Below are positions 17,344 through 48,250 of a stretch of DNA of 64,000 nucleotides, in pieces. The stretch lies in the NCBI GenBank assembly GCA_013177855.1, contig JABLYA010000001.1, forward strand, positions 248,001 through 312,000. The letters run 5' to 3'. Under the pieces are notes generated by a model. That model had not been told where the DNA came from, made no database searches, and saw only the letters and a list, made by a program, of their open reading frames with translations. How positions within the stretch are numbered: position 1 is the first letter of the stretch; each line of letters starts with the position of its first letter. Both the position numbers and the translations under genes were made by a program. This DNA is from Ignavibacteria bacterium. GTDB taxonomy: Bacteria; Bacteroidota; Ignavibacteria; Ch128b.

Positions 17344-18783
17344 TTAGTATGTAATTGTTAGATAGATTTTTTTCTTTGAAAATTTTATTCCTGGTGCAGG
17401 AAAATGAATCAGATTAAATGTATTTTTTAGAAACTGCCAGAATTGTCCATATAATGGAATTTGCTCGAAATCATAGTCAAGTGTTAAGTAATAATTTTGA
17501 TCTGCAACAGCGTAGCCATTCCAGTTTCTCATCTGATAACCAATTGCAAGACACAAAAAATCGGGCCAATATTTTTCTAAATTTTCTGGAAGCATATTAT
17601 TGATCTTAAAACTCAAATAAAAACTTTGTCCTTCGTAATCATCTATCACAAATTTATTTCTATAAAGTTCATCATTTGGATCTTTCTTCAATAATCTTTT
17701 AGATGGATAATAACTCAATTTAAGATTAACATTTTTTAGTGGTGGAATATAATATTGAAGCAGTGGATAAAAAGCACCACCAAAATCAAACATTGCATCA
17801 CCTGGACTAAATCCCCAGTCTTTAGCATAACCATCATAAGTTTCAACATATAATTGGTAAGTCAAAGCTAATATTGAACCAAGCCACATCGATGTTTCAT
17901 CAGAAAAATTCGACCAACTTAAGGATGAAGAAAACAAATGCTGAATAGCTGTTGCACCCCACCAGTGACCTAATTTATCAATCCATAGAGCGTACTCCCA
18001 GTCGTTTTGGAAATGAAATTTTGTTCTTGTCCCCTGCCACCAAGCTTTAGATTGATGGTGATGAACAACAGCAACCGATGCCGAAGTGAGAGCAGTTACA
18101 AGTAATAAACGATCGAAGTAAATTTTTGTTTTTAAATTGTAATTGACAGGTTGAATTGATTGAAGTTCTTTATACTTGAAAATGTAATACACATCGTTTG
18201 ATTTAATTGTATCGTTTGGTTGATGCAGAACAAAGTCTTGCGCCATTCCAAATTCATTAACAGGCGTCACCCTGAGCCTGTCGAAGGATGACTTTTCACT
18301 TTCTGCCAAAACTAATTCGTCAGGATTCGGCAAACTCAGCCTGACATCACGAATTGAAAAAACATTGTCAGGCTTCGATAAACTCAGCCTGACATTTGAG
18401 TTTTTAATTGAAGTCTTTTTATGCTCATCAAGTGATGTCACCCTGAGCTTGTCGAAGGGCGTCACCCTGAGCCTGTCGAAGGGTGACTTTTCACTTTCCG
18501 TCAAAACTAATCCGTCAGGATTCGTCAAGCTCAGCCTGACATTTGAGTTTTTAATTGAAGTCATTTTATGATCATCAAGCGATGTCACCCTGAGCTTGCC
18601 GAAGGGCGTCACCCTGAGCTTGTCGAAGGGTGACTTTTCACTTTCTGCCAAAACTAATTGGTCAGGATTCGTCAAGCTCCGCCTGACATTTGGGGAGACT
18701 TTATTGATTTTTGAAAAAGAAAAAACGTTTGAATTAATAAATAAAACTCCAATCAGACTAACCCAAACAATGAATGTTTTCAT
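17344..18783 (-). CDS. DUF2279 (YfiM-like) protein with an N-terminal insert of palindromic repeats
   Basis: 479 residues. A signal peptide (about 1-22) is followed at about residues 33-172 by an unusual repetitive segment with motifs such as FDKLRVT and NVRLSLTNPD. It is encoded by nine REP-like hairpin units. The real domain begins near residue 200: SKAWWQG, DKLGHWWGATAIQHL, WGFSPGDAMFDFGGA, matching DUF2279, a periplasmic or envelope protein family of unknown function. The insert is in frame through 147-base (49-codon) tandem units. Whether the insert is translated and tolerated, or the true start lies after it, is open; no ATG with a good ribosome binding site is obvious between insert and domain. 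Confidence 0.72.
   Translation of the reverse strand: MKTFIVWVSLIGVLFINSNVFSFSKINKVSPNVRRSLTNPDQLVLAESEKSPFDKLRVTPFGKLRVTSLDDHKMTSIKNSNVRLSLTNPDGLVLTESEKSPFDRLRVTPFDKLRVTSLDEHKKTSIKNSNVRLSLSKPDNVFSIRDVRLSLPNPDELVLAESEKSSFDRLRVTPVNEFGMAQDFVLHQPNDTIKSNDVYYIFKYKELQSIQPVNYNLKTKIYFDRLLLVTALTSASVAVVHHHQSKAWWQGTRTKFHFQNDWEYALWIDKLGHWWGATAIQHLFSSSLSWSNFSDETSMWLGSILALTYQLYVETYDGYAKDWGFSPGDAMFDFGGAFYPLLQYYIPPLKNVNLKLSYYPSKRLLKKDPNDELYRNKFVIDDYEGQSFYLSFKINNMLPENLEKYWPDFLCLAIGYQMRNWNGYAVADQNYYLTLDYDFEQIPLYGQFWQFLKNTFNLIHFPAPGIKFSKKKIYLTITY
18266..18687. repeat. Cluster of nine REP-like palindromes (two stem variants) in a 147-bp tandem arrangement
   Basis: Units of type A (GTCACCCTGAGC...CGAAGGGTGAC) begin at 18266, 18437, 18461, 18584 and 18608. 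Type B units (GTCAGG...CAGCCTGAC) begin at 18319, 18367, 18514 and 18661. The complement of type B shares the core CTGAGCTTG.CGAA with type A, but its stem has GG/CC where A has CC/GG, a compensatory change. A-to-B spacing is 53 bases three times, and the A, A, B sets recur with a 147-base period. Units at 18437 and 18584 are incomplete on their right side because the next unit starts directly. All lie within the DUF2279 reading frame. Confidence 0.9.
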
Positions 18784-18784
18784 T

Positions 18785-20302
18785 TTATTTTTCAGGTCTC
18801 ATTGTTGGGAAAAGAATCACATCACGGATTGAATGTTGATTTGTCAAAAGCATAACAAGTCTATCGATACCAATTCCAAGTCCAGCTGTTGGAGGCATTC
18901 CATATTCAAGAGCACGAACGAAGTCTTCATCAAACATATGTGCTTCTTCGTCGCCTGCTTTTCTCATTTTCATTTGTTCTTCAAATCTTAATCTTTGATC
19001 AATTGGATCATTCAATTCACTAAAAGCATTGCATAGTTCTCTACCCATTACAAATCCCTCAAATCTTTCAACCACATCTGGTCGAGATCGGTGTCTCTTT
19101 GCAAGCGGTGAAAGTTCAAGTGGATAATCATAAATAAATGTAGGTTGAATTAAATCAGGCTGAACGAGTTCACTAAAAATTTCATCAATCAATTTTCCAC
19201 GAGTGATATTTTTATCAACATCAAGTTCTCTTGATTTTGCAAAAGAGAAGAGAGAGTCATAATCATCGTTAAGTATATCTATACCCAGTTTTTCTTTTGT
19301 AAGTTCAGCCATCGAATATCTTTTCCAGGGAGGAGTAAAATCAATTTCATTACCTTCAATTAAAATTTTTTGAGTTCCGTGTAACTTTTGCACGATGTGA
19401 GAAATTAGTTTTTCAACAAATTCCATCATCCAGAAATAGTCTTTATAAGCAACATAAAGCTCGAGCATCGTAAATTCAGGATTATGCTCTCTATCCATTC
19501 CTTCATTCCTAAAATCCTTGGCGATTTCATAAACACCTTCAAAGCCTCCGACAATCAATCTCTTTAGATAAAGTTCGTCAGCAATTCTTAAGTACAAATC
19601 CATATCAAGAGCATTGTGATGAGTGATAAATGGTCTTGCTGCGGCACCTCCATAAATCGGTTGGAGAACAGGTGTTTCAACTTCAAAATAACCACAAGAA
19701 TCAAGATACTCTCTTAAGTAACGAATTATTTTTGTTCGTTTGACAAAAACATCAAGCACTTCTCGGTTTACGATTAAATCAACATATCGCTGACGATAGC
19801 GTAATTCTTTATCTGCGAATTGATCGTAAATAATTTTATTTCCATTTTCATCAATAACTTCTTTTGCAATTGGTATGGGTCTGATTGATTTGCATAAAAC
19901 AGTTAATTCTTTTACGTGGATAGTGGTCTCACCTGTTTTTGTTTTAAATACAAACCCTTTTACGCCAATTATATCTCCTATGTCAAGCAGTTTAAAAATA
20001 TCGTAAGCATCACCGAGATCATCTTTTTTAAGATAGATTTGAATCTTACCTTCAAAATCCATTATGTGAGCAAATGATGCTTTGCCCATTCTTCTGAGAG
20101 ACATTATCCTCCCTGCAACTGAAACATCCTTCCCTTCAAGCTCTGAATAATTTTCTAAAATTTCTTTTGAACGATGAGTTACATCGTAATTGTAAGGATA
20201 AGGATTGATTCCCCTTTTCTTAAGTTCCTCTAATTCTTCAAGTCTTCTTTTAATTAAAACATTTATATCTTCAAAATGTAAATTTTGATGTTCGTTGTTC
20301 AT
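18785..20302 (-). CDS. lysS: Lysine--tRNA ligase, class II
   Basis: About 505 residues from ATG 20302, which overlaps the dacB stop as ATGA and follows a GAGGGAA ribosome binding site; an upstream in-frame start at 20341 is less likely. An N-terminal OB-fold anticodon domain (about 50-160) precedes the class II catalytic domain with motif 2 at [18 protein letters not shown] and motif 3 at [12 protein letters not shown] near the end. It charges tRNA-Lys. Confidence 0.95.
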
Positions 20303-21819
20303 TTTAAATTCCCTCTTGAAAAGTTTGACAATAAAATACAAACTAAATCCTGAATGTTTTCTGCGAGTTTTAATGGTACAAGAAAGTTGTTCGCAATCAT
20401 AACAAATGTGAGCATCTCGCCATCAGTTGTTGTAACATAGCCTGAAAGAGATCGAACTGCATTTATATATCCAGTTTTGGCTCGTACATTATTCATCGCT
20501 CTTGTGTTTTTCATTCGATTAGCAATTGTACCATCCACTCCTGCAATTGGCAGAGATTCATAAAACTCATTGAAATATTTTGAACGATACATAAATCTCA
20601 GCACTGAATTTAGTTGGGCAGGAGTAATTAAATTTAATCTCGATAATCCTGAACCATCAACAATCTGGATATTCTCAGGATCAATTCCCATTTGTTTTAA
20701 GAGATTTTCTGATGCCTTTAATCCATTTTCAAAAGATCCAAATTTCAATTTTTCATAACCAATAGTTTTCATTAATTGTTCAGCATAAAGATTATGACTT
20801 ACTTTATTTACAACTTTTACAATTTCTTTCAATGGTGGAGAAATTTGAGTGAATAATGGTGTGAGTTTCTGATAATCTCTAACAATTCCTAGTTCATCAT
20901 TATCAAGTGCCTGTCCTTTAACTTTAATGCCTTTACTTTCGATAACTTCTTTTAAGACTTGAGCTGTGAACTTTGTTGGATTATTGATTGAAACTGATTC
21001 TTTTATCTCTATCTCTGATTTTCTGATTGTTCCAAAAACTTGAATAATGTTTGTGTTTCTCTCTCTATAGAAATCAATGTTGGTAATTGAATCATCCGAA
21101 ACTGTTACAACATCGTTCAAGATGGTTACATATTTAGTTTTAGGATAAATATCAATAATAGCTTTACGCCCGACTTTTTCTCCAGGAATTATTTTTATAT
21201 CAATACAATTATCATTAAAACAAACTCCGCCTGGTATTGCTGAATAATAATAAGTTTCATCATCCCAGGACCAGCCGTTACCAAGCGCCTCTTCTTCAAA
21301 TGCATCATCATCGGCAATGATATTTCCAGTTATAACTTCAATGCCCATATTCAAAAGACTATCTGCCCAGGCATTAAAAACAGTCAATGCATCTCCATTG
21401 TAAAATCTGGAAGTAATTGTTGGATCTCCAACTCCTCTCAGAATCAAATCACCTTTAATTTCTTCATTTCTAATTTTTCCATTGAGAAAGAGAGAAGTTT
21501 TATAAGTGTAATCAGGTCCCAGCTGCAAGAGCGCAAGAGCTGTGGTGAAAAGCTTCATATTTGAAGCAGGCATAAAATTTTTATGTTCATTCCGACGATA
21601 AAAATATTCCCCAGTTGAAAGAGATTGAATTACAACTCCCCAATGAGCATTTGAAAATGCAGGATCATTAAAAATATCATCTAAAACTTTTGAGAATTCT
21701 TTGAGGTCAGAATACTTAACTTTTGGTAATGTATCTTGTTCTGGTTTCTGCAAAACCTGTGAAAATGAGACATTAATTAAGATAACAATGCAAAAAAGAA
21801 TTGATTTAATTTTCATCAT
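20299..21819 (-). CDS. dacB: D-alanyl-D-alanine carboxypeptidase/endopeptidase (PBP4, S13 family)
   Basis: 506 residues with a signal peptide ([20 protein letters not shown]). The active-site motifs are SNMK in [14 protein letters not shown] (about residue 83), SHN in [14 protein letters not shown] (about 343) and KTG in [15 protein letters not shown] (about 448). Between them is the long insert typical of PBP4-type enzymes. It trims or cleaves peptidoglycan cross-links in the periplasm. The start overlaps the rluB stop by 14 bases. Confidence 0.92.
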
Positions 21820-31648: not shown

Positions 31649-32389
31649 TTAATCAGAATTTAAATCTTCTTCTTTTTCATTAGTTATGAAATAAATTGCA
31701 CCCATATATTCTTTGACATTTCTAATTTCAATCTCTGGAAATTTAACCTCGAAATTTTTTATGAATTTATTTTTTCCTAAAGGTGGAAAATTTTCAAAAA
31801 GCTTCTGCAGGAAATTTAGAATTGTTTTGTTTTCTGAATAAACCATCACAAATGGCAGAATTATATTAAAGAACATTTCTTTTTTTCTCTGTTCACCTAT
31901 TCCATCAAAATTCATAATCCTGGTTACAACCTTAGTGAAATCAACTTGCTGGATGACCTTTTGAATATTCTGAATAAAATAATTTACAATTCCATTATCT
32001 AAACTATCAACCAACAAATTTATAATTCCCTTTAATCTTTTTTCTGGAAAGTTTGCCGGTCTTATGCCCCGATATTTCCAGACACTCTTATCCAATCTTA
32101 AAGATAGATCAAAAAATTCGGGAAGCATTTTTCTATCATCACTAAAACCCGCCCGGTAAAGAAATGCCTTTTCAATAATTTGTTTATCCTTTAATCTTTT
32201 AATTTCAGAATATGGTAAAATAAGAGCAAGCTCAAGAAAATTTACCTTATTGATTGGATAACCAAGAGAAACCATTATTTCTCGATAAAGAGCCTCATCA
32301 GGATTGGTAATTTTAAGAAGATTTTTCATCCTTTGTTTTTTGCGTTCCAGCCATTTTTCACCAAGGTGATTTAGATCGATTTTGTTCAT
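31649..32389 (-). CDS. DUF2851 family protein, apparently N-terminally truncated
   Basis: 246 residues. The segments LGYPINKVNFLELALILPYS and IRPANFPEKRLKGIINLL are typical of the C-terminal half of DUF2851, which is normally about 420 residues. The usual N-terminal half, with its GPDF and GDVE-type motifs, is missing. The start ATG overlaps the upstream RAYT stop (ATGA), consistent with RAYT insertion or a deletion having removed the first half. It may still be translated by coupling; whether it functions is unknown. Confidence 0.6.
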   Translation of the reverse strand: MNKIDLNHLGEKWLERKKQRMKNLLKITNPDEALYREIMVSLGYPINKVNFLELALILPYSEIKRLKDKQIIEKAFLYRAGFSDDRKMLPEFFDLSLRLDKSVWKYRGIRPANFPEKRLKGIINLLVDSLDNGIVNYFIQNIQKVIQQVDFTKVVTRIMNFDGIGEQRKKEMFFNIILPFVMVYSENKTILNFLQKLFENFPPLGKNKFIKNFEVKFPEIEIRNVKEYMGAIYFITNEKEEDLNSD

Positions 32390-33024
32390 TGTAAAATTAT
32401 TCTTTCGAAATATTCTTGAATATTTTTGTAATCCGTCTTTTTTACAGGGTTTTCAAAATCCAGGGACCATTTTAATGGGTTGTTTATTATGTATTTGCGA
32501 ATTCTGTTTAATTCTTCTTCATTTCGAATAATATGTTCATAATAATTGCGTTGCCATATTTGCAGGGGTGGATTATTATTCACCCCTGCATTTTGCCGAC
32601 ACAATTTTGTTACACCAATTTTATAACCACGAATTATTGATCCAATTGTTCGTGATGGTGATCGGAATGATTTGGTTTGTTGTATTTGTTGTGGGGGCGA
32701 ATTATCATTCGCCCCTCCATTATCATTAATGATGATAATTCCATGAATATGGTTCGGCATAATCACAAATTCATCCAATGTAACATTTGGAAAATGGTTC
32801 GGAATTTCCAACCAACATTGTTTGGCAATTTCGCCCACCTCGTTCAAAAACATTGTTCCATCATTAATTTTTCCAAATAAACATTGGCGATTATGGGTGC
32901 ATATCGTAACGAAATACGCACCTGCCTGTGAATAATCATAACCTTTTAATCTAATTGATCTGCGATGATGTTTTGAAGGATCATATTTCATTTTTATTTC
33001 ATACATTCTTAGATCTGGTATCAT
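32386..33024 (-). CDS. REP-associated tyrosine transposase (RAYT), copy 1
   Basis: 212 residues (an alternative start is ATG 32991, MKYDPSKHH). The Y1 HUH motif is in MPNHIHGIIII and the catalytic tyrosine probably in RNYYEHIIRNEEELNRIR. RAYTs nick single-stranded REP palindromes. The frame carries two palindromes (32561-32590 and 32694-32715) that encode Gly/Asn/Pro-rich linkers between the HUH domain and the tyrosine. The N- and C-terminal parts are nearly identical in DNA to copy 2, and only the middle diverges. It overlaps copy 2 by four bases. Confidence 0.85.
   Translation of the reverse strand: MIPDLRMYEIKMKYDPSKHHRRSIRLKGYDYSQAGAYFVTICTHNRQCLFGKINDGTMFLNEVGEIAKQCWLEIPNHFPNVTLDEFVIMPNHIHGIIIINDNGGANDNSPPQQIQQTKSFRSPSRTIGSIIRGYKIGVTKLCRQNAGVNNNPPLQIWQRNYYEHIIRNEEELNRIRKYIINNPLKWSLDFENPVKKTDYKNIQEYFERIILQ
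32561..32590. repeat. REP-like palindrome inside RAYT copy 1
   Basis: A perfect 10-base stem TGCAGGGGTG / CACCCCTGCA with a 10-base loop. It lies within the reading frame of RAYT copy 1 on the minus strand, and its codons give the AGVNNNPPL stretch. Confidence 0.85.
32694..32715. repeat. REP-like palindrome inside RAYT copy 1 (second)
   Basis: A perfect 9-base stem GGGGCGAAT / ATTCGCCCC with loop TATC. It shares the GGGGCGAA stem with the palindrome in RAYT copy 2 at 33235, so both belong to one family. Its codons give GGANDNSPP. Confidence 0.85.
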
Positions 33025-33701
33025 TTTCCTGAATAATTTTTATCTAATTCCCATTTTAATGGATTGGTGATTATGTATTTGCGAATTCTGTTTAATTCTT
33101 CTTCATTTCTAATAATATGTTCATAATAATTGCGTTGCCATAATTTACCATTGAATGGTTTCCAACCCATGTTTTTAACATTAAATATATATTCATTTGT
33201 TGTCATTGTTTTAAACCATTGCACCACCCGCGGCAGGGGCGAACCCTTGTGTTCGCCCCTATCAATGTGTTCCCCCGAATGTATGTGTTCATCAATTTTA
33301 TCGGGGTTGATACGTTGGTCTGAATTATTGGGGTTGACGCGTTGGTCTGAATTATCGGGGCAGACACGATGGTCTGAATTATCGGGGTTGACACGTTGGT
33401 CCGAATTACCGGGGCAGACACGATGGTCTGCCCCTACGTTTATAATGATGAAATGGATATGGTTTGGCATAATAATGTATTCGTCGCAACGTATGTCAGG
33501 AAATTTATTTGGTAATTTAAAATACCATTTTTCAATCATCTTCCCCGCATCGTTCAATACCATTTTACCATTCTCAATGGTCCCAAATAAACATTCCCTG
33601 TTTTTTGTGCATATCGTAACGAAATACGCACCTGCCTGAGAATAATCATAACCTTTTAATCTAATTGATCTGCGATGATGTTTTGAAGGATCATATTTCA
33701 T
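33021..33701 (-). CDS. REP-associated tyrosine transposase (RAYT), copy 2, with repeat-expanded middle
   Basis: About 226 residues from ATG 33701, preceded by an AGGAGTG ribosome binding site; a longer frame from 33761 overlaps the methylase gene and lacks support. HUH motif: MPNHIHFIIIN. The linker (about residues 89-155) is made of 9-residue repeats such as DQRVNPDNS and DHRVCPDNS, encoded by 27-base tandem units related to a REP palindrome. The C-terminus has RNYYEHIIRNEEELNRIRKY with the nucleophilic tyrosine. It lies between the methylase gene and copy 1. Confidence 0.85.
   Translation of the reverse strand: MKYDPSKHHRRSIRLKGYDYSQAGAYFVTICTKNRECLFGTIENGKMVLNDAGKMIEKWYFKLPNKFPDIRCDEYIIMPNHIHFIIINVGADHRVCPGNSDQRVNPDNSDHRVCPDNSDQRVNPNNSDQRINPDKIDEHIHSGEHIDRGEHKGSPLPRVVQWFKTMTTNEYIFNVKNMGWKPFNGKLWQRNYYEHIIRNEEELNRIRKYIITNPLKWELDKNYSGK
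33235..33260. repeat. REP-like palindrome inside RAYT copy 2
   Basis: A perfect 10-base stem AGGGGCGAAC / GTTCGCCCCT with loop CCTTGT, in frame within RAYT copy 2. Confidence 0.85.
33298..33434. repeat. 27-base tandem repeat ending in a REP-like palindrome
   Basis: About five units of 27 bases alternate between GGGGTTGACACGTTGGTCTG and GGGGCAGACACGATGGTCTG, each followed by AATTAYC. The last unit ends in GTCTGCCCC and so closes a perfect 9-base palindrome (33411-33434: GGGGCAGAC / GTCTGCCCC, loop ACGATG). Units are multiples of three, so they encode a 9-residue protein repeat in RAYT copy 2. Confidence 0.88.
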
Positions 33702-33706
33702 TTTAT

Positions 33707-36700
33707 TTACACACTCCTTGCTTTTTCTAATCTTGTTTTGACTAGTTCGGCAACAGCCCAATAGACTTCTTTGCGTTCTTCTTCGGTTAAGCCAAGAGCA
33801 TTAAAGACAATATCATCAAGGGCTTTTCTGTCGGGTAGTGGATTTGGCTCCTGCTCACGAATAGGCTTTTTCGGGTCAAAACCAAGTTCGGTGAAAATGG
33901 AGTCAAACTTTTTGTTAAACACCATCGATGGGTCTTGTGAATGGGAAAAAATTCGAGGTTCTATAATCGGAATCCTTTTTACATTTTCAACTGACAATTC
34001 TCCTAATGTATATGCTCCTGTATATTCTTTAGCTTCTATTTCTAGAACCAAGCGTTGGATTGTAGAATTTATTGAGATGAGTAATGCCACTAAATCACAT
34101 CTTAAATTAAATAATGGATATAATTTTTGATCAGCATAACATTGGTCCTCAGTAAACAAACAAGCAAATCTTTCTCCAAATCTTTTTTGCCAAAAAATAT
34201 TAGATAAAGGAATTGAAGGAATAAAACTGTACCAGAATTTCCTTCCTTTAAGTGATGAAATTAAAGGTAATGGAATTCCTGCAGCCTGTTTTTGTTTTCC
34301 TTTAGATGTCATTTTTTCTCCATATTTAATGTAATCTTTAGCTTTAAAATCAACTTTTTTGTAATTTATTTCAGGAAATATAAGGATTAAACTATCAGGA
34401 TAACCTGAAATAAACGTCCAATCTTCATACTCAGTTATCACCGGCTTCAAAAACCTTGCTTCAATTTCTCCTTCCCAGCCAGCTCCGTTCTTAACCCTTA
34501 TCAAGGCATCAGGATTTTTCTCGGCAATTTCTACAACCTCTTTAACTGTCTTACCTACTGGTTTTAAATAGAAAAATTCATTTGCTCCTGTTGTAAATCC
34601 ACGCCGAACCTCTGCAATATCTCCCAACCTAACTAATTTTCCTTTCCCTTTTTCTAAAATCTTAAAGTAAATCTCTGGAGCTCTTAGATATTTCCCACCC
34701 CATTTATTGCCAATATATGGAAGATATTCAGGGTCATGTTCCATCAATCCATCATCTTCTGGAATTTCAACCCCTTCCTGCAGAAGTTCTTTTTTAGTTT
34801 TTGGATAAATTCTGAAATTACTATCATCAAAAACTGGCTGGTTTGTGCTTTCAATCTTCTTAATTACATCAATATTCAATACTTCTTCGAAAGGTTTTTT
34901 GAATGCAACAAACTTGATTGAATAGTCATCGACTTTTTCTTCTGGTCTCTGGATTAAGACAATAACTGTGTTTACATCAGCTTGCTTGAACGATCGCTTT
35001 GCGATATTATCAAAAATGTAAAGCGGCCTCATCTCTTTTAATAAAAATCCTTGAAGTCCTGTACCATATCCCACATCAAGCCAGGAATTAGAGTTAATAA
35101 AACAGAAAATTCCACCAGGACGAAGAAGAGATAATCCCTGATAATAGAAATAAACATAAAGATCGCTTTTTTTGTCAATAATTGTATCCTCGTTCCAATT
35201 TAATTTGACAGATTGTATCAATTTCTCTTTATAAGCTCTTTTTAGCTCTCTCCATTTTTCATCATCAGTGTAAGCATTCCTATTTTCAAGTGGCGGTGCT
35301 ATAAGTTCCTGTCGTACATAAGGTGGATTACCAATAACAATATCAAATCCACCCTTCTGTGAAAAAACTTCAATAAAATCAATTTCCCATAAGAAGTAAT
35401 CTTTTTTTGTTTTATTACCTATTACCTGAAGTATTGATATTAATTTTTCCAGTTTATCTTTTTCTGCTTCTATTTCTTTTTCAATTTTTTTGATTTCTTC
35501 CTTTTCGCTCTTTGTCTTTTCAAGATCAAAAATCATTTTTTCCATAACTTTTAATTGAAGACGGTGCTTGTTTACCCCTACCTTAGTATTTATTTTATCA
35601 ATCTTTTCCTGAATAATTTCTTTGAATATTTTCTGCTCTTGCTCTTCAATTTTTCTCAGCTCATTTAAATCTGCACTAATTAAACCAGTGAAGAATTTTC
35701 TTTTACTTTCCACTAATTGCTCTATTCTGCCTAATGTTGTATTGCCAGATTTAGATGGATCACTCTTAAAATTAATTGGAATTCCGGCAATTTCCTGAAT
35801 AAGAGAATCACCCTGCTTTAATTTAAAAGAAAGATTTGGCAATAGAGGTCTGGTGTAAATGTCCATATATTTTTCATCTGTTTCTATGATTAAGGAAAGC
35901 CACAATCTCAATTCACCAACCATTAGAGCCCAATCCTTAACATCTACACCATAAAGATTTTCGAGAATAATTTTTTGTTTTAAGGCAAATAGATTTTCTT
36001 CTCTATTCTCAAGGGTTCTCGAAATTTCCTGATGAAGTTCAACAAGTATATTCATCATTCCCACAAGAAACGAAGCAGAGCCAACTGCAGGATCAACAAT
36101 TTTAACTTCTTCGAGTTTCTTTTTTATTTGCAGCAGATCACTTATTTCAATCTCTTTAACTTTTTGATGTGGATCAAAGATGAACTCAATTATTTTATCT
36201 TTTGGTGCTTTCGTTTCACTTGCCAGATAATTGACAAGAGACATCCTGCACATAAAATCAATTTCAATTCTAGGAGTATAGAAAATGCCTGCTTCGCCTC
36301 TTTCTTCTTCTGCAATTAAAGATTCGTAAACCTTTCCCAACATTTCCGGATCGACTGCAACTTCAACATCAACCGGCAACGCTTCATCAATTGTAAAATT
36401 AAATATCTCAAGAAAGCCTTTCTTTAAGTCTGAAGAATCTGGTTCGAATAGCCATTCAAAAACTTCATCGGAAAAATCAAAATTCAATTCATCTAATTCT
36501 GTTTGTGAGAATAAACCTCCGTTTAGAAAAGGCATAATGCTAAAAGATTCCTTAATCTCGTCTGGTAAATTTTCATTGAAAAGATGTGTCTTTTTATTAA
36601 ACGCACCAAAGAATAAACTCTTCAGCCATTGTGAATAAAAGACATCCTTATTGTTTGTTTGCTCACGCCATTTTTTATACTTTTCCCAAAGATTTTTTAC

Positions 36701-47305: not shown

Positions 47306-47358
47306 ATTTTAACATTACAATATACATAGATTTAATAAAACATTAAATGAGTTTTTTA

Positions 47359-47520
47359 AGTAGCGTTTAAAAACTTTGTAAAGGTAAAAAATAAAAGAGG
47401 CATTTATCCTCCTTAAATTTGAAGAAAAAATGGAGGATAAATGCCTTGTTAATTAAATGCCAACGAAAGTTGGACGAAATTAAAAACTATTTCAAAGAAA
47501 ACAAAAGCTTAGTTTCATTA
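47359..47520 (+). repeat. 162-bp duplicated left end of the IS256-type element
   Basis: The stretch AAGTAGC...to CATTA is repeated almost exactly at 47521 onward, giving a period of 162 bases. It includes the hairpin AGGCATTTATCCTCC / GGAGGATAAATGCCT (15-base perfect stem). The first copy lacks the ATG before LDEIKN because that codon reads AAG. It may be a tandem duplication or an insertion of one element into the end of another. Confidence 0.8.
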
Positions 47521-48250
47521 AGTAGCGTTTAAAAAATCGTATAAAGGTAAAAAATAAAAGAGGCATTTACCCTCCTTAAATTTGAAGAAAAAATGGAGGA
47601 TAAATGCCTTGTTAATCTAATGCCAACGAATGTTGGACGAAATTAAAAACTATTTCAAAGAAAACAAAAGCTTAGGTTCATTACTAAAGCCAATGGTTAA
47701 AGATTTTGTTAAACACTTAATTGAAACAATTCTTGAGACAAAGATTGAGTATGAAAGGAGTAAAGCGGCGATCAAAAAGAATTGGTATCGGAATGGTTAT
47801 TATCAAAGACATTTGCTTACAACCTTTGGATTAATTGAGAACCTAAAAGTACCAAGACTTAGAAATAGGGTCTATGAAAATGGGATTCCCCAAAAATGGC
47901 AATGAAGACTTGATGATTTTGATTGATTTATGATCAAAATATTCACACAAGAAGTTTAGTATGTAAGTATTTTGATGTAAATGTAGAAGCAGTAGCTATA
48001 TTTTTAGATGATGGATTGATTAAAACAAAATCCTCAATCGAATTAAGATTTCATCACTTGTTCAACACAACAAATCTAATTGAAAGATTTATCAGAGAAA
48101 TTAGAAGAAGAACTAATGCAATAGGACATTTTGAAAATCTTAGTAGTGCTGATAAAAATTTGTTCTTAGTAGTTAGTCATATTAACATAGATTTAATGTG
48201 TAATGCCTCTTCAAGTAATTTTAACATTTACACAATTTTTGGGACTTAAT
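47521..48250 (+). mobile_element. IS256-family element remnant with internally deleted transposase
   Basis: The left end matches the copy at 47359. The transposase is seen as two pieces: 47630-47905 (LDEIKNYFKENKSL, GYYQRHLLTTFG, VPRLRNRVY) and 47923-48249, containing NTTNLIERFIREIRRRTNAIGHF, the C-terminal signature of IS256-type transposases. The catalytic core between them is gone. The right end is imperfectly complementary to the left (shared GAGGC...AAAAATTGTGTAAA pattern). It is a dead element. Confidence 0.85.
47630..48249 (+). pseudogene. IS256-type transposase, internally deleted and frameshifted
   Basis: The N-terminal fragment (92 codons) ends at TGA 47903-47905, and the C-terminal fragment is in another frame. 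The full transposase is about 400 residues, whereas about 190 remain in total. The DDE catalytic residues are not present in either piece, so it cannot be active. Confidence 0.85.

Follow-up and report, generated by a model that had tools for sequence, protein, structure and literature searches.

Nine copies of a dispersed REP-like palindrome within the reading frame of a DUF2279 gene from an Ignavibacteria bacterium

How does a short palindrome that mainly lies between genes come to occupy a protein-coding gene nine times, and is it the DNA hairpin, the transcript or the protein that is kept there? This question is raised by the DUF2279 (PF10043) gene at 17344–18783 (minus strand, 479 aa) of the window, the whole stretch of 64,000 nt that we analyzed from an Ignavibacteria bacterium; the gene directly follows lysS (18785–20341, minus strand). 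Nine copies of one palindrome lie within it, leave its frame unbroken and add about 140 aa to the predicted protein. The nine units in about 420 bases, the two stem versions and the opposite orientations described in the original prediction were all seen at 18266–18689. Its statement that all units share one core stood for six of the nine, which carry CTGAGCYTGNCGAA exactly, while the other three are off by one or two bases; and not all nine are complete palindromes, as the units with cores at 18443 and 18590 are internal to 24-bp tandems and have no full 3' arm. Allowing up to two mismatches, we found the core 11 times in the 64 kb, compared to 1.08 times expected by chance, and 9 of the 11 are located in the array. 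Five units on the plus strand show the CC/GG version (unit A, stem GTCACC/GGTGAC) and four on the minus strand the GG/CC version (unit B, stem GTCAGG/CCTGAC). The array begins with an A unit (18266–18292, core at 18272, 3' arm GGATGAC) and its convergent B partner (18320–18346, core at 18326), followed by a fully paired B unit (18367–18393, core at 18374). An A unit with an incomplete 3' arm (18437–18460) is the first of a 24-bp in-frame tandem, after which come a fully paired A unit (18461–18487, core at 18467) and its convergent B partner (18515–18541, core at 18521). A further A unit (18584–18607) is the first of the second 24-bp tandem, and here the fully paired A unit at 18608–18634 (core at 18614) has as its convergent partner the B unit at 18662–18688 (core at 18668, reading CGGAG). 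All three convergent pairs in the gene have a spacing of 54 nt. The predicted in-frame period of 147 bases was recovered by Tandem Repeats Finder as a 147-bp (49-codon) tandem duplication at 18367–18692 (2.2 copies, 92% match), with the two 24-bp duplications nested in it.

The unit had been described as a dispersed, REP-like palindrome with covarying stems, and both properties were observed. Searching the bacterium's own genome (3.66 Mb in 10 contigs) with the pattern GTCANNCTGAGN(3-8)CGAA gave 54 matches, compared to 0 for the same pattern reversed. As is typical for REP-like sequences, the element is an imperfect palindrome found in many copies, mainly intergenic, and compensatory changes keep its stem. 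Nearly all copies examined outside the DUF2279 gene have no covering ORF of at least 80 codons, the exceptions being short or decayed contexts and one stemless match (L021), which we set aside as a possible chance match. Each unit is a hairpin of about 27 nt with a fixed apex, CTGAG...CGAAG, and with interchangeable, covarying stem pairs, and at least five stem types occur in this genome (CACC/GGTG, CATC/GATG, CATA/TATG, CAGG/CCTG and TATG/CATA). For the covariation analysis we used 30 units and excluded internal tandem members, in which the next unit takes the place of the 3' arm. In this set 90% of the stem cells were paired, compared to 75.7 ± 1.5% after shuffling and 32–43% with slid partners, and the stem cells changed on both sides numbered 33 versus 10. 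Folded as DNA, consensus units reached z-scores of −2.3 to −3.4 and formed a 7–8-bp stem; in the cases with both strands folded, each of them gave this stem. Judging from the sequence, the helix could continue through the apex by way of two G.A mismatches.

In the bacterium's own genome the units often form convergent pairs 51–60 nt apart, many of them with related spacers, and in the pairs listed there the two members differ in stem type. Such inverted doublets at a set spacing, recurring as the repeated unit, are the arrangement of a BIME or REPIN. When the 147-bp repeat was used as a BLAST query, the alignments with intergenic copies of the same genome extended from the palindrome to spacer sequence (63 nt, 86%), and this similarity beyond the palindrome suggests that the copies inside the gene and those between genes have a common origin. 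Hairpins of this kind, but with different stems and loops, also occur in relatives, in up to 199 copies per genome (G024). In G024 many pairs are spaced at exactly 63 nt and most combine units of a single stem type, so that a composition of two stem types fails as a general rule for the pairs. Further arrays were seen as dense intergenic clusters of 26-nt tandem units with inverted partners (L093, G000:C1:1013000-1030000; more than 20 element copies in about 11 kb), as arrays with a spacing of 74–75 bp in another genome of the class (L189 and G110:C1:595690-602807; about 20 copies in 7 kb) and as decayed copies of the element that repeat about every 147 nt in what appears to be non-coding DNA (L094, 4200–4850). 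The window also contains a 163-bp direct tandem duplication at 47356–47683 (two copies, 94% match).

The position of the array in the DUF2279 protein agrees with the original prediction, as it follows a putative signal peptide and precedes the conserved domain, for which the PF10043 match covers residues 264–343. The DUF2279 start lies directly behind the lysS stop in the window, and close behind lysS in a genome of the same genus (G001). Because of this start and the signal-peptide-like N-terminus ahead of the array, the array is most likely part of the coding sequence. The gene order lysS–DUF2279–glycosyltransferase was found in G001 and in the family members L036, L037 and L039, and its DUF2279–glycosyltransferase part also in L038. 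A comparison of orthologs, which the original prediction had named as a check, showed that the relatives' DUF2279 proteins align over the domain with 51–61% identity to the window protein and that the repeat and insert are absent from the orthologs of all four genus- or family-level relatives compared. In G001 a non-repetitive linker takes the place of the array, and the two element patterns used gave zero copies in the G001 genome. The linker is the variable part among the orthologs compared, as expected for the tolerant linker that had been proposed; no relative of the protein was found in the PDB. From relatives whose linkers do not align we infer an insertion, as opposed to a loss in other lineages or the expansion of a hairpin present in an ancestor.

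Through the array the gene's own frame alone is free of stop codons (0 stops compared to 1–16 in the other five frames). The seven distances that separate neighbouring units on the same strand within the gene are each divisible by 3, compared to 9 of 28 elsewhere in the genome; since some of the seven stem from one duplication they are partly non-independent, and we counted them as four events (p ~0.012). The two full 147-bp copies differ by 10 nonsynonymous and 3 synonymous changes, where 74% nonsynonymous changes would be expected without constraint, and within this small test of 13 changes the differences look neutral. From the spacings, the sole open frame and the 10:3 changes it follows that the frame is protected, while the peptide is without detectable constraint. 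The claim that hairpin shape rather than protein sequence is kept was thus correct with regard to the peptide, but it has to be qualified, as the frame is strictly kept.

We consider it quite probable (roughly 78%) that the array arose by expansion, within the gene, of a dispersed, dimer-forming REP-like element, which was tolerated and amplified in the linker. This reading unites the dispersal, covariation, pairing, absence from orthologs and frame preservation that we observed. A dimer would have inserted into the linker that joins the signal peptide to the DUF2279 domain, and the insert would have stayed because three of the six reading frames of the unit are free of stops and the linker tolerates varied sequence. 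Afterwards the array may have grown by local in-frame duplications of 24, 48 and 147 bp, with selection for the domain downstream of it purging variants that break the frame. The hairpin would then be the conserved entity and the peptide a by-product, and movement from site to site would probably proceed via single-stranded hairpin DNA, with an enzyme acting in trans. Our search for a mobilizing enzyme found none, and no RAYT is linked to the element.

RAYTs are REP-associated tyrosine transposases, IS200-like HUH enzymes, and the original prediction had suggested spread by RAYT-type activity, in which such an enzyme copies the dimer in trans. The own genome contains four Y1_Tnp (PF01797) matches, the window has two adjacent RAYT-like genes (32386–33761), the dimer layout is REPIN-like, including the 63-nt pairs of G024, and element copy number is weakly correlated with Y1_Tnp count across 119 genomes (rho 0.35), a value that ignores the relatedness of these genomes. 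However, in about 72 RAYT-like loci we observed no well-paired unit within 1.4 kb; the nearest cluster of well-paired units, in G110, is at a distance of 2.6 kb, and none of the RAYT-like genes examined is flanked by the same REP. PF01797 matches occur in 98 of the 119 class members, and 3 of the 13 genomes with at least 20 element copies have no detectable Y1_Tnp match (G064, G080 and G092, with 26–76 copies). A role of RAYTs is therefore doubtful, and this part of the prediction was not borne out. The RAYT-like gene at 33021–33761 (minus strand) itself contains an in-frame 27-nt tandem array (33298–33430) as well as two hairpins of the form GGGGCRRAC...GTYYGCCCC, which occur nowhere else in the genome. 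It is the window's second example of a hairpin or repeat expanded in frame; the adjoining RAYT-like gene (32386–33024, minus strand) has a near-identical N-terminal sequence.

The exact 27-mer GTCACCCTGAGCTTGTCGAAGGGTGAC was found in 59 contig stretches from more than 10 phyla, in which binning errors are possible as nearly all host genomes are MAGs. The hosts include Bacteroidota/Ignavibacteria, Eremiobacterota, Omnitrophota, Peregrinibacteria and other Patescibacteria, Alphaproteobacteria, Nitrospinota, Neomarinimicrobiota, Spirochaetota, Clostridia, Calditrichaeota and others. The 27-mer was absent from viral contigs, which gives no sign of phage carriage. Most of the exact copies are intergenic, and three interrupt conserved enzymes in frame: MurC (L136), where the copy lies in additional sequence separating the middle from the C-terminal ligase domain; TrmFO (L182), where alignment gaps coincide with two copies, one exact and the other degenerate; and a Type ISP enzyme (L187), in the specificity domain. 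As with Rickettsia palindromic elements (RPEs), the copies in DUF2279, MurC and TrmFO are in-frame insertions into conserved proteins at places where the homologs have none. The element is read as SPFDKLRVT in DUF2279 and, in another frame, as VTLRQAQGD in MurC, TrmFO and the Type ISP enzyme; the original prediction had placed its peptide motif in many database ORFs, and we indeed saw it in ORFs of other organisms. A literature search on the core sequence and the peptides found no description of the element. A farther-reaching interpretation, which we regard as possible but unlikely, is that of a RAYT-independent palindromic element, shared by more than 10 phyla with identity over 27 nt and moved by another enzyme, which would be suited to life inside genes, as stops are absent from half of its reading frames, and which would repeatedly add peptides to conserved enzymes across Bacteria.

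An RNA-level role, in which mRNA hairpins modulate the translation or stability of DUF2279 and of the downstream glycosyltransferase, appears improbable. Although the transcript folds far better than its shuffles (z −5.3), good folding is expected of any palindrome array, the hairpins are not conserved in relatives and no Rfam family came near threshold, the sub-threshold matches being chance ones. Least probable of all is a PARCEL-like repeat selected at the protein level, in which the 49-residue unit might serve, for instance, as a binding repeat or as a spacer in the periplasm or at the surface: the strictly preserved frame, the near-identical 147-bp copies and the signal-peptide-like N-terminus of the host protein would fit it, but the substitutions between copies look neutral, the insert is missing from all orthologs compared and the frame in which this DNA is read differs in other proteins.

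The preferred reading, expansion of a dispersed element inside a gene, has known counterparts in RPEs and intragenic REPs. For Rickettsia RPEs and intragenic CGTC/GTAG REPs, clusters encoding 43–82 aa have been described (PMC3733652), and like these the element here is a short palindrome found both between genes and in frame within proteins (PMC3733652). In contrast to them it has a different sequence, occurs as an identical unit in more than 10 phyla and forms a longer insert (about 140 aa, nine units) with nested in-frame tandem duplication. CGTC REPs have been reported from Chlorobi, Bacteroidetes and others and reportedly lack an association with transposase genes (PMC3733652). With this CGTC-tagged superfamily the element shares a 5' C/TGTC, variable stems, head-to-head dimers, intragenic copies and the lack of a linked transposase (PMC3733652). 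However, in most of its units the GTC head is paired to a GAC at the 3' end, while the CGTC head is unpaired; it has no CCA tail; and its predicted unpaired apex measures 11 nt compared to 4–5 nt in CGTC families, unless the G.A mismatches count as stem. Judged by the description of the families, it thus departs from CGTC REPs in head, tail and loop, and it also differs from GTAG REPs, as its heads are mostly C/TGTC and an unpaired GTAG head is absent. REPIN/BIME dimers likewise repeat two inverted REP units with a spacer and show compensatory changes (PMC3116915), but here the pair members differ in stem type in the own genome, no associated RAYT was found and one dimer lineage has been amplified inside a gene. 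PARCEL elements are also palindromic coding repeats, often in membrane-targeted proteins and with a wide, patchy distribution (PMC2996958); they keep a 25-residue amphipathic protein motif (PMC2996958), whereas the element here keeps the DNA hairpin and not the peptide. Compared to these systems, the DUF2279 array offers a clean case outside Rickettsia in which a selfish-looking DNA hairpin became part of a predicted protein and multiplied without loss of the frame, and a congeneric species that lacks the insert is at hand for comparison. It also points to a widespread family, without a linked RAYT in the clade examined, as a source of FDKLRVT, LSLSKG and LRQAQGD peptides in the ORFs of numerous bacteria.
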